In this document: piece by piece, positions 6,791-11,963 of the stretch
Layout of the letters: each line of letters begins with the position of its first letter
How positions within the stretch are numbered: the first letter of the stretch is position 1
Virus record (IMG/VR): IMGVR_UViG_3300046460_000116
Span: 1-28,918 of that record
Length of the DNA: 28,918 nucleotides
Source of the DNA: a virus
Direction: 5' to 3' (one strand)
Position numbers and translations under genes: made by a program
The notes under the pieces: generated by a model
The model's database searches: none
Seen by the model: only the letters and a program-made list of their open reading frames with translations
What the model was told of the DNA's origin: nothing

Positions 6791-7363
6791 TTACCTGGGC
6801 TTGGTCCAGTCGATAGGAGCCGCCCACTCAACAACCTCATCCACCATGTCTGCATAAAGCGTGTTGACGCTCTGCAGGGTCCACGTCCTGTCTGTCGAAC
6901 CCTTCCGAAGCACCTTGACGAAGATCCGACCATCGCCGAGCTGCACGACACAGCGGCGGTTCACCATCGCATCGGGCGGCAGGAGTTTGCTGTAATAGAG
7001 TAACGTCCCTTCCTCATATGCGGGGAACATCGATTCGCCGGAAATCTCGACGGCGACCGTTCCAGGCTTCGCTTCGGCAGGAGCGGCAACGTGGTCGTCA
7101 TCTTCTGAATGGATGGCGATGACTTCTTGGCCGGCGCCTACCTTGCCCTTGAGCGGCACCATGATTTCTTTCGGCGCCGTCAGACCGGTGATACGCTCGA
7201 TCTCAAGCAGTTCGTCGCCGGCAATAGCTCGCCCACCCGTAGCCATCTTGTTGACGGCGGCCCGGTCGATTGAACGGCCTAGACGCTGGGTCAACTCGCG
7301 CGCAATCGCCGCCTGCTTCACGCCGGATTGCTTGATCGCCTCACGTAGCCATTCTGACAACAT
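6791..7363 (-). CDS. S24-family (LexA/CI-type) phage repressor
   Basis: This 190-aa protein has an N-terminal helix-turn-helix (about residues 14-48: VKQAAIARELTQR, then DRAAVNKMATGGR) and a C-terminal S24 peptidase domain. The catalytic Ser is S111 in SGESMFP and the Lys is K150 in RIFVKVL. VGAGQE at 75-80 contains an Ala-Gly pair that may be the self-cleavage site. The family represses lytic promoters and is inactivated by RecA-stimulated self-cleavage, so the phage is probably SOS-inducible. The ATG at 7363 gives the usual family length. Its ribosome-binding site is weak. It is divergent from the Cro-like gene, and TGTAGCG-type sites lie between them. Confidence 0.9.
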   Translation of the reverse strand: MLSEWLREAIKQSGVKQAAIARELTQRLGRSIDRAAVNKMATGGRAIAGDELLEIERITGLTAPKEIMVPLKGKVGAGQEVIAIHSEDDDHVAAPAEAKPGTVAVEISGESMFPAYEEGTLLYYSKLLPPDAMVNRRCVVQLGDGRIFVKVLRKGSTDRTWTLQSVNTLYADMVDEVVEWAAPIDWTKPR

Positions 7364-7408
7364 GAAAAACCGATAGCCTGCGCGGCCTTCGGCGTATATT
7401 TCCGTATT

Positions 7409-7415
7409 CGCTACA
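7409..7415. promoter_or_regulatory. Putative operator half-site near repressor promoter
   Basis: CGCTACA, preceded by ATT, repeats the half-site seen at the other operators. It lies between the divergent genes, about 45 bp before the repressor start, where it could serve repressor autoregulation. No convincing -35 and -10 pair for the repressor was found. Confidence 0.4.
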
Positions 7416-7422
7416 AATCCAC

Positions 7423-7450
7423 TTGCGTTTGTTGCTTTTATCGCTACACT
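7423..7450 (+). promoter_or_regulatory. Rightward early promoter
   Basis: TTGCGT (7423-7428) and TACACT (7445-7450) are separated by 16 bp. The predicted transcription start falls at or next to the ATG at 7458, so the message may be leaderless. The late promoter at 13139 has the same TTGCGT -35 box. The operator at 7435-7448 covers the spacer and part of the -10. Confidence 0.6.
7435..7448. promoter_or_regulatory. Putative operator, 14-mer shared with leftward promoter
   Basis: CTTTTATCGCTACA is the exact reverse complement of the 6184-6197 site. It overlaps the rightward promoter, so a bound repressor would block Cro-like gene expression. Confidence 0.65.
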
Positions 7451-7457
7451 ACGCAGC

Positions 7458-7712
7458 ATGGAACCAGCCCGCACAATCATTTTATCCCTCGGTGGACCGA
7501 ACGCAGTCGCGAAGATTGCGGGCGTTCACCGCACCCGCGTCTCGAACTGGATGCGCGCCAAGGAAGCCGGCGGCACTGGCGGCATGGTCCCGTTCAAGCA
7601 CGTCCCGGCCATGATCGCGGCTGCTAAGGACAAAGGCATTGAACTGAGCGCAGACGACTTCCTCCCGCCAGTCGCGTCGCAGGAAGAAACCTCGCAAGAG
7701 GAAGCCGCTTGA
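7458..7712 (+). CDS. Cro/YdaS-like DNA-binding protein
   Basis: This 84-aa protein starts MEPARTIILSLGGPNAVAKI, continues AGVHRTRVSNWM, then VPFKHVPAMIAAAKDKG and DDFLPP. The order of a GG turn, helix-turn-helix, basic loop, a PxxHVPAxIxAA helix and a D-D-F-L-P end is that of YdaS/Cro-like regulators opposite S24 repressors. It likely binds the same operators and lowers repressor synthesis during lytic growth. No ribosome-binding site precedes the ATG, consistent with a leaderless message. Its stop overlaps the next rightward open frame as TGATG. Confidence 0.85.
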   Translation: MEPARTIILSLGGPNAVAKIAGVHRTRVSNWMRAKEAGGTGGMVPFKHVPAMIAAAKDKGIELSADDFLPPVASQEETSQEEAA

Positions 7713-9746: not shown

Positions 9747-10112
9747 ATGACGCGCATCGAGCTTCCGTTTCCTGTGCCGCTGCACGCTCTTTGGCTGAAG
9801 CACAAGGGCGGCGGCGGCATACCTTCGCCGCGCTATCGCGCCTACGGCAAGGAAGCCTGGGCTGTAATAGCCCAGCAGCGGCCACAGAAGCTCAAGGGTA
9901 CGGTTTCGGTGTTCGTCCGCCTCGTCGCGCCTGACAAGCGCGAGAGAGACGCTGACAACCTCGGCAAGTGCGTTCTCGACACGCTCAAGACGAATGGCCT
10001 CATCGAGAACGACAGCAACCGGTTTGTTCGGCGCCTGACGTTCGAATGGGCTTCGGACGGACCGCCTTGCGTCGTGATCATACAGCAGACTGAGGAGGCA
10101 ATGGCAGCATGA
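9747..10112 (+). CDS. rusA: RusA-family Holliday junction resolvase
   Basis: The 121-aa protein starts with a short beta segment (ELPFPVPLHALW) and has the RusA signature ERDADNLGKCVLDTL, with D68, D70, N71 and K74, followed by GLIENDSNRF with D89. The acidic residues form the metal site in E. coli RusA. The family cuts Holliday junctions and branched phage DNA before packaging. It follows from this that recombination intermediates made by ERF in the opposite operon could be resolved here. GGAG precedes the ATG. Confidence 0.9.
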   Translation: MTRIELPFPVPLHALWLKHKGGGGIPSPRYRAYGKEAWAVIAQQRPQKLKGTVSVFVRLVAPDKRERDADNLGKCVLDTLKTNGLIENDSNRFVRRLTFEWASDGPPCVVIIQQTEEAMAA

Positions 10113-10246
10113 AGCGTCCGAGCCTGTTCACAACCTGTGGAAAACTTTCCTGCCCTGTGGATAGCGGGTGTCCGTGCTGGTTTTCGGCCCCAAGCAGTTC
10201 AATAGAATATAGAAGCGAGTTTTTGCTTCGCCAGGAAGGCTGTTGA
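10109..10246 (+). CDS. Possible 45-aa Cys-rich peptide between RusA and initiator genes
   Basis: The ATG overlaps the rusA stop (ATGA) and the frame ends just before the initiator gene. Five cysteines occur in 45 residues (C10, C15, C21, C23, C45). Such a density would suit metal binding, but the coding DNA also carries two DnaA-box-like sites and an AT-rich segment, so the sequence may be conserved as DNA rather than protein. No family is recognised. Confidence 0.35.
   Translation: MKRPSLFTTCGKLSCPVDSGCPCWFSAPSSSIEYRSEFLLRQEGC
10136..10164 (+). promoter_or_regulatory. Two DnaA-box-like sites, 20 bp apart
   Basis: TGTGGAAAA (10136-10144) and TGTGGATAG (10156-10164) are in the same orientation. 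The second differs from the complement of TTATCCACA at one position. A 20-bp spacing puts them two helical turns apart, and an AT-rich stretch follows at 10198-10224. They may bind host DnaA or the phage DnaA-domain protein. Confidence 0.45.
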
Positions 10247-10248
10247 AA

Positions 10249-10953
10249 ATGAGCCCGGAAATGTTCCGCAAACTTGCCAGTCTCGGCCTCAGCCATGAGC
10301 AGATGGCCGGCGTGCTGGAAATCTTCGATGAGGATGCCGGCGAACGTCGCGCCAAGGTCAAGGCTCGCGTTGATAAATGGCGTGCTAAGAACAAACCGGA
10401 AACGTTACGTAACGTTACAGAACGTTCGGAAACATCACAGGCCGTTACGGAACGGCTCGTGCGCGTAGAAGGTAGTTCTTTAGAGGAAGATAAAAAAGAA
10501 AAGGAAGAAAGGAAGAAAGACAGAGCGGCCAAGCCGCGTGGGGATCTGGACGCCTTCAAAGGCGAACTGTCTTCCATCCTCGATCCTGCCCGCATCGAAG
10601 CCCTTGTCGCTGTTCGACGCAAGAAGGGCGCGACGTTCTCGGCTCACGCCGGCTCGTTGCTCGTCTCAGCACTCCAAGCTTGTCCCGATCCGCAGGCGGC
10701 GGCTGACGAGATGGTTCTCCGTAACTGGACGGGCATCAAGCCGGAATGGCTCGAAAGCCGAACAGCACCACCTCAACGCTCGACGGCGCCACCGGCCAGG
10801 TCGGCACACAACGAAATTCTCGACGCAATCATTCGAGGCGAAAACAGTGTCCCAGCAATCAGCCCAACAATCGATGCCAGCTACGAACGGTCAGACGGCG
10901 GAAGCGCTACAGGTCCTGTTCGACTCTATGCGCTTCCCTCCGGGCGTCGATGA
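10249..10953 (+). CDS. Lambda-O-like replication protein carrying the origin
   Basis: This 234-aa protein has a helical N-terminal part (residues 1-50, MFRKLASLGLSHEQ, then VDKWRAK), a charged linker (about 73-95) and a second helical domain (about 100-170, with RIEALVAVRRKKGATFSAHA and NWTGIKPEWL). The position after rusA and before a probable helicase-loader gene is that of lambda O. I do not see a classical O motif; the strongest support is that its linker region is encoded by iteron repeats and a purine tract. ATG at 10249 is chosen over TTG at 10243 for its 9-nt spacing from GGAAGG. The C-terminus overlaps the next gene by 107 bp. Confidence 0.65.
   Translation: MSPEMFRKLASLGLSHEQMAGVLEIFDEDAGERRAKVKARVDKWRAKNKPETLRNVTERSETSQAVTERLVRVEGSSLEEDKKEKEERKKDRAAKPRGDLDAFKGELSSILDPARIEALVAVRRKKGATFSAHAGSLLVSALQACPDPQAAADEMVLRNWTGIKPEWLESRTAPPQRSTAPPARSAHNEILDAIIRGENSVPAISPTIDASYERSDGGSATGPVRLYALPSGRR
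10401..10462 (+). repeat. Tandem 10-bp iterons inside the initiator gene
   Basis: Six consecutive 10-bp units begin at 10401, 10411, 10421, 10431, 10441 and 10451. They are AACGTTACGT, AACGTTACAG, AACGTTCGGA, AACATCACAG, GCCGTTACGG and AACGGCTCGT. Units 1, 2 and 5 are closest to AACGTTACRG. The period of 10 is not a multiple of 3, so the repeat is kept as DNA and not as protein. The first 16 bases (AACGTTACGTAACGTT) are a perfect palindrome. Like lambda ori, the iterons lie within the initiator gene. Confidence 0.8.
10482..10520 (+). other. Purine-rich A/G tract, probable unwinding element
   Basis: Thirty-eight of 39 bases on the plus strand are purines, with A predominant. It begins about 20 bp after the iterons. 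It encodes the Glu/Lys-rich linker of the replication protein. In lambda ori a purine-biased AT-rich segment next to the iterons is the place of first unwinding, and this tract holds the equivalent place. Confidence 0.7.
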
Positions 10954-11437
10954 GAAGCGCGCCATCTTCGGCTACATGACGGCGCTCAATGGCTTCACCA
11001 TCGAGGCGATCGAATACGGTATCCGCAAATTCCTTCGGGGCGAGTGCGAGGGCGTCAACCCGAAATACTGCCCACACCCTCCGGAGCTGGCCGCTATCAT
11101 TCGGACGGCAGTGGTCCCCAATCGCGTCCTCCGCCTTCCGACGCCGGTTCACCCTGACGCGCCGACACAAGGCGAGCGGGAACGCATGCGGTTGAAGATG
11201 CCAATGTACCGCCATGCCTACGCCTGCGGGCTCATGGACGAACTGGACGCGGCCAACAAAGCCGGCTTCGGCGCTATGGTTGTCCTCGCCACCAGATGGG
11301 GCATCGAGGTCCCTGAGGAGCTTCTATCTGTTCCTGAGGCTCAAGCGGAGCGGCAATGGCGTGAGGCTCGCAACAGAGCCTGGGGCGCCATCGAGCGGAA
11401 CCCGCCACCATTCATGCGCAGAATCCGAGTAGCGTAA
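10847..11437 (+). CDS. Hypothetical 196-aa protein in lambda-P position
   Basis: The start is probably GTG at 10847, 6 nt after CGAGGCG. An ATG at 10874 has no ribosome-binding site. The frame runs inside the initiator gene's 3' end for 107 bp and then alone. Residues about 30-85 (LFDSMRFPPGVDEK, then GIRKFLRGECEG, then YCPHPPELAAII) and the basic C-terminus (RNRAWGAIER) look like a phage replication protein. The gene order suggests a helicase loader. No Walker motif is seen, so a DnaC-type ATPase is excluded. Confidence 0.65.
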   Translation: MSQQSAQQSMPATNGQTAEALQVLFDSMRFPPGVDEKRAIFGYMTALNGFTIEAIEYGIRKFLRGECEGVNPKYCPHPPELAAIIRTAVVPNRVLRLPTPVHPDAPTQGERERMRLKMPMYRHAYACGLMDELDAANKAGFGAMVVLATRWGIEVPEELLSVPEAQAERQWREARNRAWGAIERNPPPFMRRIRVA

Positions 11438-11442
11438 GGGAG

Positions 11443-11451
11443 TTATCCACA
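11443..11451 (+). promoter_or_regulatory. Perfect DnaA box overlapping a start region
   Basis: TTATCCACA matches the bacterial DnaA box exactly. It fills the spacer between the AAGGGAG ribosome-binding site and the ATG of the DnaA-domain gene, with its last A being the A of that ATG. It could serve DnaA or phage-protein binding to control this gene. As a 9-mer it has some chance of arising by accident. Confidence 0.5.
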
Positions 11452-11963
11452 TGCAAATGTTTGCTTATCGAAACACCGAGCGCGGCATCCGCATGCGCCA
11501 CGTCCAACAGATTGTGGAACAGCCCTTCAAGAGGCCGGTGTTGCTTCATGTGGTTGAGGAAGATCCGGTCGCCATCGCAGAACGCGCCAAGCTGGCCGCC
11601 ATCGAGCATGAGCGGCTTGATGGCATGCGATTGCTACGGAGAAACGGCATGCCGGAATGGGCAATTTCCATCGCCTCGGAAGTGTCAGACAGGCACGCCA
11701 TCCCGTTATCGGATATCGCCGGACGAAAGCGGTTTCAAGGGATAGTCGATGCCCGCAAAGAGGCCGCCTACCTCATCAAGGCAAAGCAGCCGATGCTTTC
11801 AATGGTCCTGCTCGGCAAATGGTTCGCCAGGGACCATACGTCAGTCACGCACCTAGTCGCCTGCCACGCAGCGGCGCACAATCTTCCAAAGCTTGTTGGC
11901 TACGATCTGGAAAAGGTCCGCAACAGGGACAAGCAGCGCAAGGCCGCAGGAGCAGCACCATGA
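11451..11963 (+). CDS. DnaA domain-IV-like DNA-binding protein
   Basis: Residues about 75-140 resemble the C-terminal DNA-binding domain of DnaA: PLSDIAGRKRFQGIVDARKE, then LGKWFARDHTSVTHL. The RDHTSV sequence at 127-132 matches the RDHT[TS]V signature that contacts the DnaA box. There is no AAA+ ATPase, so this is a stand-alone domain IV with a 70-residue N-terminal extension. It may compete with host DnaA for boxes, act as an initiator for phage boxes, or repress its own gene. The start at 11451 follows AAGGGAG by 8 nt. The stop overlaps the next start by ATGA. Confidence 0.8.
   Translation: MQMFAYRNTERGIRMRHVQQIVEQPFKRPVLLHVVEEDPVAIAERAKLAAIEHERLDGMRLLRRNGMPEWAISIASEVSDRHAIPLSDIAGRKRFQGIVDARKEAAYLIKAKQPMLSMVLLGKWFARDHTSVTHLVACHAAAHNLPKLVGYDLEKVRNRDKQRKAAGAAP

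Follow-up and report, generated by a model that had tools for sequence, protein, structure and literature searches.

A candidate phage replication origin inside its initiator gene, with an adjacent basic helix as the putative reader of its repeats

The window, by which we mean the whole 28,918-base virus record IMGVR_UViG_3300046460_000116, contains an O-like replication initiator gene flanked by a RusA resolvase gene and a gene for a protein of unknown function. A tandem repeat array lies inside the initiator gene. The features discussed here are as follows.

6791-7480: CI-like repressor gene
9747-10112: RusA resolvase gene, neighbour of the initiator gene
10249-10953, plus strand: O-like replication initiator gene, 234 amino acids from the ATG at 10249 (assigned by phrog_678, phrog_6451 and the homologs L002 and L003)
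10366-10389, plus strand: RVDKWRAK, a basic motif (residues 40-47) that closes a predicted long helix and is the proposed reader of the iterons, with W at the specificity position
10401-10460, plus strand: six tandem 10-bp iteron-like units at one-turn spacing, consensus AACGTTACRG, namely AACGTTACGT (10401), AACGTTACAG (10411), AACGTTCGGA (10421), AACATCACAG (10431), GCCGTTACGG (10441) and AACGGCTCGT (10451)
10401-10416: perfect 16-bp palindrome AACGTTACGTAACGTT, which opens the array
10466-10525, plus strand: most AT-rich 60 bp of the window (67% AT against a mean of 41%), proposed DNA unwinding element
10482-10520, plus strand: purine tract, 38 of 39, encoding most of LEEDKKEKEERKKD
10540-10764, plus strand: C-terminal helical domain of the initiator, residues 98-172 (AlphaFold2 pLDDT about 88; alignment)
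Ending at 11437: protein of unknown function, neighbour of the initiator gene
11451-11963: DnaA-domain-IV protein (Pfam match to Bac_DnaA_C)

The initiator ORF matches phrog_678, 'replication initiation O-like', at E=1.5e-8 through profile positions 151-300 only, and the primosomal phrog_6451 at E=4e-8. AlphaFold2 (pTM 0.35) predicts a short helix, a long helix over residues 16-47 that terminates in the basic motif, a disordered segment at residues 58-94 and the helical C-terminal domain. The disordered segment is most of the array and the purine tract as protein. A search of the PDB for folds resembling this model (pTM 0.35) gave no match. The array begins at residue 51, 150 bp inside the gene, and lies within the disordered linker.

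The DnaA C-terminal DNA-binding domain is the sole recognisable part of the 11451-11963 product, which is encoded directly downstream of the replication genes. A perfect DnaA box, TTATCCACA, at 11443-11451 overlaps the start of this gene, and two one-mismatch boxes (10136-10144 and 10156-10164, 20 bp apart) lie just upstream of the initiator gene. DnaA-box-like sites, perfect or with one mismatch, number nine in the window versus 2.7 expected. Among the relatives, L126 also has a perfect box upstream and the others lack one.

An earlier note on this DNA had described six 10-bp units opened by a perfect 16-bp palindrome. The palindrome is confirmed and the array is real, but its units are degenerate, the full AACGTTAC occurring in the first two only. 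Counting both strands, three exact copies of AACGTTAC fall within 20 bp. Our literature search, which covered sources open without subscription, did not find the palindrome and found GTAACGTTAC in unrelated contexts only. No other place in the 28.9 kb window scores as high as the array at period 10: it has 27 of 50 matches and the next best 24. Taken by itself this autocorrelation is weak evidence: 408 of 20,000 synonymous recodings of the same peptide (about 2%) reach the bare period-10 signal, which is thus modest. We also counted exact copies of AACGTTAC, a motif fixed from other phages. Three or more copies arose in 3 of 200,000 recodings under phage codon usage and in 82 of 200,000 under uniform codons. 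Few recodings reproduce them because the array requires codons such as TTA, which encodes 1 of the 252 leucines in 11 other ORFs of the window. On the 3 in 200,000 recodings and the reading of the same DNA in several frames, we rejected pure chance and a protein repeat as explanations of the array.

Homologs of the initiator include L002 (61% identity) and L003 (47%), both with 10-bp arrays at the same place over different peptides (ANVSKRLPTTANVSS; VTLQKVTETQRNG). It had been suggested beforehand that the repeats should persist in relatives while the amino acids vary, and this is the case in seven relatives (L002, L003, L006, L028, L029, L126 and L155), among which peptides have changed and C-terminal domains have been swapped. 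This persistence and the 3 in 200,000 recodings support the claim that the 10-bp period, being off the codon frame, is selected as DNA. L028 and L126 have the N-half and array as in the window with another C-terminal domain, while L006 and L155 have an AACGTTWGC array in common and differ in their C-terminal domains; in alignments, residues 98-172 are replaced by an unrelated domain in L028, L126 and L006. Because the array is shared along with the N-half despite these swaps, it travels with the N-half, as would be expected if the N-half reads it. A Sinorhizobium meliloti pSymB protein (L161 2030-2911) is a homolog of the C-terminal half, with another N-half and no GTTAC array. No relatives of the window initiator were found in INPHARED phages or in scans of genome contigs, and the N-domain alignment was too divergent to serve for scanning.

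A wider scan of IMG/VR used DNA only, searching for AACGTTAC three times with gaps of 0-22 and no assumed spacing. It returned at least 75 non-redundant ORF arrays, in two main classes. Arrays in structural proteins encode GNVT/NVT-type amino-acid repeats at in-frame spacings of 9, 12, 18 or 24, and those in replication proteins have one- or two-turn spacings (9-14 and 21-24 bp), many of them out of frame. GTAACGTTAC-type arrays occur in phage initiators that are unrelated to one another, spanning Alphaproteobacteria to Firmicutes. In the class of replication proteins a basic motif, R-x-x-x-[HFYWC]-R, occurs 5-29 residues before the array, in 30 of the 75 ORFs among the matches listed; its fuller form is R-x-x-[RK]-X-R-[ED]-[RK]. 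Its density among these matches is 30 in 3224 positions upstream of arrays versus 7 in 28307 elsewhere in the same proteins, a 38-fold enrichment (p about 1e-23). The 30 ORFs have spacings of 9-14 and 21-24 bp only, and more than one reading frame is used in 16 of 29 motif-plus-array genes, again among the matches listed. Sixteen of the motif-plus-array proteins were compared with family libraries. Twelve of them matched initiator, replisome-organiser, primosomal, helicase-loader or DnaD-like families; L111 had no match in three libraries, and L089, L099 and L133 had none in the one library used for each. The window follows the same plan. RVDKWRAK conforms to R-x-x-[RK]-X-R-x-[RK] and starts at residue 40, within 5-29 residues of an array that runs from residue 51, and the iterons, of the GTTAC/GTCAC kind found one or two turns apart, are spaced at 10 bp. 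As a control, arrays of the scrambled motif AAGCATAC were collected, and the basic motif was absent from all 17 ORF arrays. This is not a clean negative, because the control set includes L185 and L191, which are initiator-like and have another basic motif with its own array.

The AT peak of the window (10466-10525) is likewise located at the array end. Among the matches listed, the AT-richest 50 bp starts at the array end in 21 of 34 helix-plus-array genes, where 4.0 are expected (binomial 6e-12). The earlier note had a purine tract following the array. The 38 purines in 39 bases are correct, but the tract begins 21 bp past the last unit and not directly after it. It is the longest such tract in the window, the runner-up 39-mer having 32 purines, and a similar A/G-rich stretch also follows the arrays of phi11, Javan393 and phiEf11.

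A second scan, for TCACGTGA arrays with GTCAC half-sites, again matched initiator-like proteins. The helix was located by a score blind to its position 5, and position 5 was read afterwards. Among the matches listed, it is aromatic in 26 of 28 GTTAC genes versus 0 of 19 GTCAC genes (p=3e-11, or p=8e-8 with three doubtful GTCAC genes counted as aromatic), p-values that overstate independence, since members of a class are in part related to one another. Neither the position-5 rule nor the GTCAC scan had been set in advance; both came out of the analysis itself. As a check free of selection on DNA, we chose 18 PF09681-type phages solely by the similarity of their proteins. All 12 with an aromatic position 5 have mostly GTTAC, phiIPLA7 by just 3 versus 2; in one of the 12, the PinkBerry phage, the score moved the helix by two residues and the Y was read by eye. 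Three of the four non-aromatic cases (CNPx, 187 and MT835477, all with RKQKQR) have mostly GTCAC, and Oenococcus phiS11 (X=S), with mostly GTTAC, is an exception to the rule. Bacillus phage 031MP004 has the helix and no array in the gene, and one of the 18 genes is broken. A third helix type, RWxxW[KQ], is paired with AACGTTWGC in L002, L006 and L155 of the window's family. The same pair occurs in L173, which belongs to an N-domain family unrelated to that one; L089, a relative of L173, combines RLKKHR with AACGTTAC.

Several other arrangements were observed. In L185 and L191, two different initiator-like proteins, a KREGGxxGG motif is followed by CTTCAAGCATACC arrays at 12-bp steps, which may be a second helix-iteron pair. 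The related phage proteins L019 and L020 have a KREQYSxAGKxSAExRR stretch and then AACGTT arrays at 10 bp. Terminase-small-subunit-like genes (L070, L075, L100 and L101) have an HTH-like region and, in the linker that follows it, GTAACGTTAC arrays at 21-24 bp; these may be packaging sites of the same build. In the DUF1376-like initiators L150 1177-1884 and L004, ANARW is followed by a repetitive linker of the GCGAAYGC type, which may be a further kind of iteron. Upstream of GTCACGTGAC arrays in L247, L227 and L248 are the helices RQSRLRESRKQ and AERQRRRREKLK, which superficially resemble the basic regions with which eukaryotic bZIP/bHLH proteins recognise CACGTG; the likeness is probably convergence.

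On the strength of these comparisons, we think it quite likely that the segment is a phage replication origin inside its own initiator gene, with the adjacent basic helix as reader of the repeats; the array itself is probably best read as an intragenic phage origin. DNA binding, melting and helicase loading by the initiator are suggested by analogy with lambda, SPP1 and 80alpha (PMC7466680, PMC6316719, PMC5499656). In this reading the AACGTTAC/GTAACGTTAC units, set 10 bp apart, would be bound by the initiator along one face of the DNA, and the spacing of one helical turn claimed earlier for the units is supported. Binding would probably be as dimers, with two basic helices on the palindromic GTAAC/GTTAC half-sites. 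The helix RVDKWRAK, encoded immediately before the array, would be the DNA reader, one of its positions, aromatic or not, tracking the GTTAC or GTCAC half-site. The AT- and purine-rich tract just downstream would be melted by the initiator, whose C-terminal domain may help load helicase there. Reader and sites would then form one contiguous portable cassette, common to otherwise unrelated phage initiators.

Other explanations can be given for the same array. The repeats might be an operator for autoregulation or for the phage repressor rather than an origin, as binding close to their own genes is common among initiators, a palindrome is a fitting site for a repressor and the CI-like repressor gene is present in the window. 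We consider this improbable, since 150 bp of the gene precede the array, no sigma-70-like promoter was found near it, and unrelated phages also have such arrays in their initiator genes, with the AT peak after them. More improbable still is that the DNA has no role and the array simply results from a linker peptide of repetitive, low-complexity (NVTER-type) sequence. The 10-bp period is out of frame, TTA is otherwise nearly absent, only 3 in 200,000 recodings produce the motif copies, the same DNA is read in several frames, and the DNA motif tracks the helix; in favour of a by-product are the modest bare periodicity in the window and the NVT-type arrays of structural proteins with their in-frame spacings.

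A different concern is the identity of the reader. The array could be an origin read by the rest of the N-terminal part or by another protein, for example the DnaA-domain-IV protein; the basic helix would then be a charged spacer whose covariation with the array reflects only adjacency and joint inheritance. Linkage is expected of adjacent elements, and the DnaA-C-like protein is encoded nearby. We nevertheless find this unlikely, if less so than the other two explanations: helix type and motif change together even where the N-domains are unrelated (L089 versus L173; the FRKL family versus PF09681), a single helix position separates GTTAC from GTCAC, and recurrence in unrelated families exceeds what linkage alone explains.

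Beyond the intragenic origin and its basic helix in this one phage, we lean towards a broader proposal, that many unrelated tailed-phage initiators share a portable origin cassette with a recognition code, in which the gene encodes a short basic recognition helix and then carries the binding sites of that helix and an unwinding element. In R-x-x-x-X-R, an aromatic X would specify GTTAC and a non-aromatic X GTCAC, while RWxxW[KQ] would specify GTTWGC. If true, both origin and specificity would be predictable from about eight residues. Phage origins are mostly unmapped and initiators mostly annotated by vague similarity, and a cassette recognisable by sequence would place origins in many temperate phages. 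It would also account for odd NVT/KRY/ETL linkers as DNA showing through the protein, and would supply a directly testable code of protein-DNA recognition, one evolving in cis since reader and sites are inherited together. Intragenic origins are already known; for the pairing of helix and repeats, no report was found in the literature open without subscription.

The origin had been called lambda-type. In lambda, ori lies inside the initiator gene O, with repeats and then an AT-rich tract (PMC7466680), and this layout is the part of the comparison that holds. Kinship of the proteins does not, as no resemblance between the initiator and lambda O could be detected, whether by BLASTP (E=9.7), by hhalign (probability 0.1%) or in Pfam (nothing above cut-off). 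The lambda iterons are 18 bp long, of another sequence and start 20-24 bp apart in the annotated record, in contrast to the 10-bp units here, and lambda O is without a basic motif of the RVDKWRAK kind. Direct repeats and an AT-rich element within the initiator gene have also been described for SPP1 gp38/oriL (PMC6316719) and 80alpha gp20 (PMC5499656). SPP1 is like the window in this respect, judged by its published description; in 80alpha the array units differ, are about 15 bp apart and are accompanied by no such basic helix. The database record for the lactococcal phage Tuc2009 states that its rep gene (orf16) holds the origin of replication, an origin in a gene as in the window, although repeats and protein differ. 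The helix-repeat code is absent from the lambda, 80alpha, TP901-1 and Tuc2009 initiators, and we therefore reject a code valid for all phage initiators. Because these four use other arrangements, the basic-helix cassette is one of several classes. The PF09681/TIGR01714 phages, such as phi11 and SM1, are closer to the window than lambda is in the sequence and spacing of the iterons. The N-terminal domain of their initiators differs from that of the window protein, which has no match to PF09681 in a Pfam search. Yet these replisome organisers (phi11, SM1, phiEf11, A500 and Javan393) have a basic helix, GTAACGTTAC iterons at 11-12 bp and then a purine/AT-rich tract in the linker.
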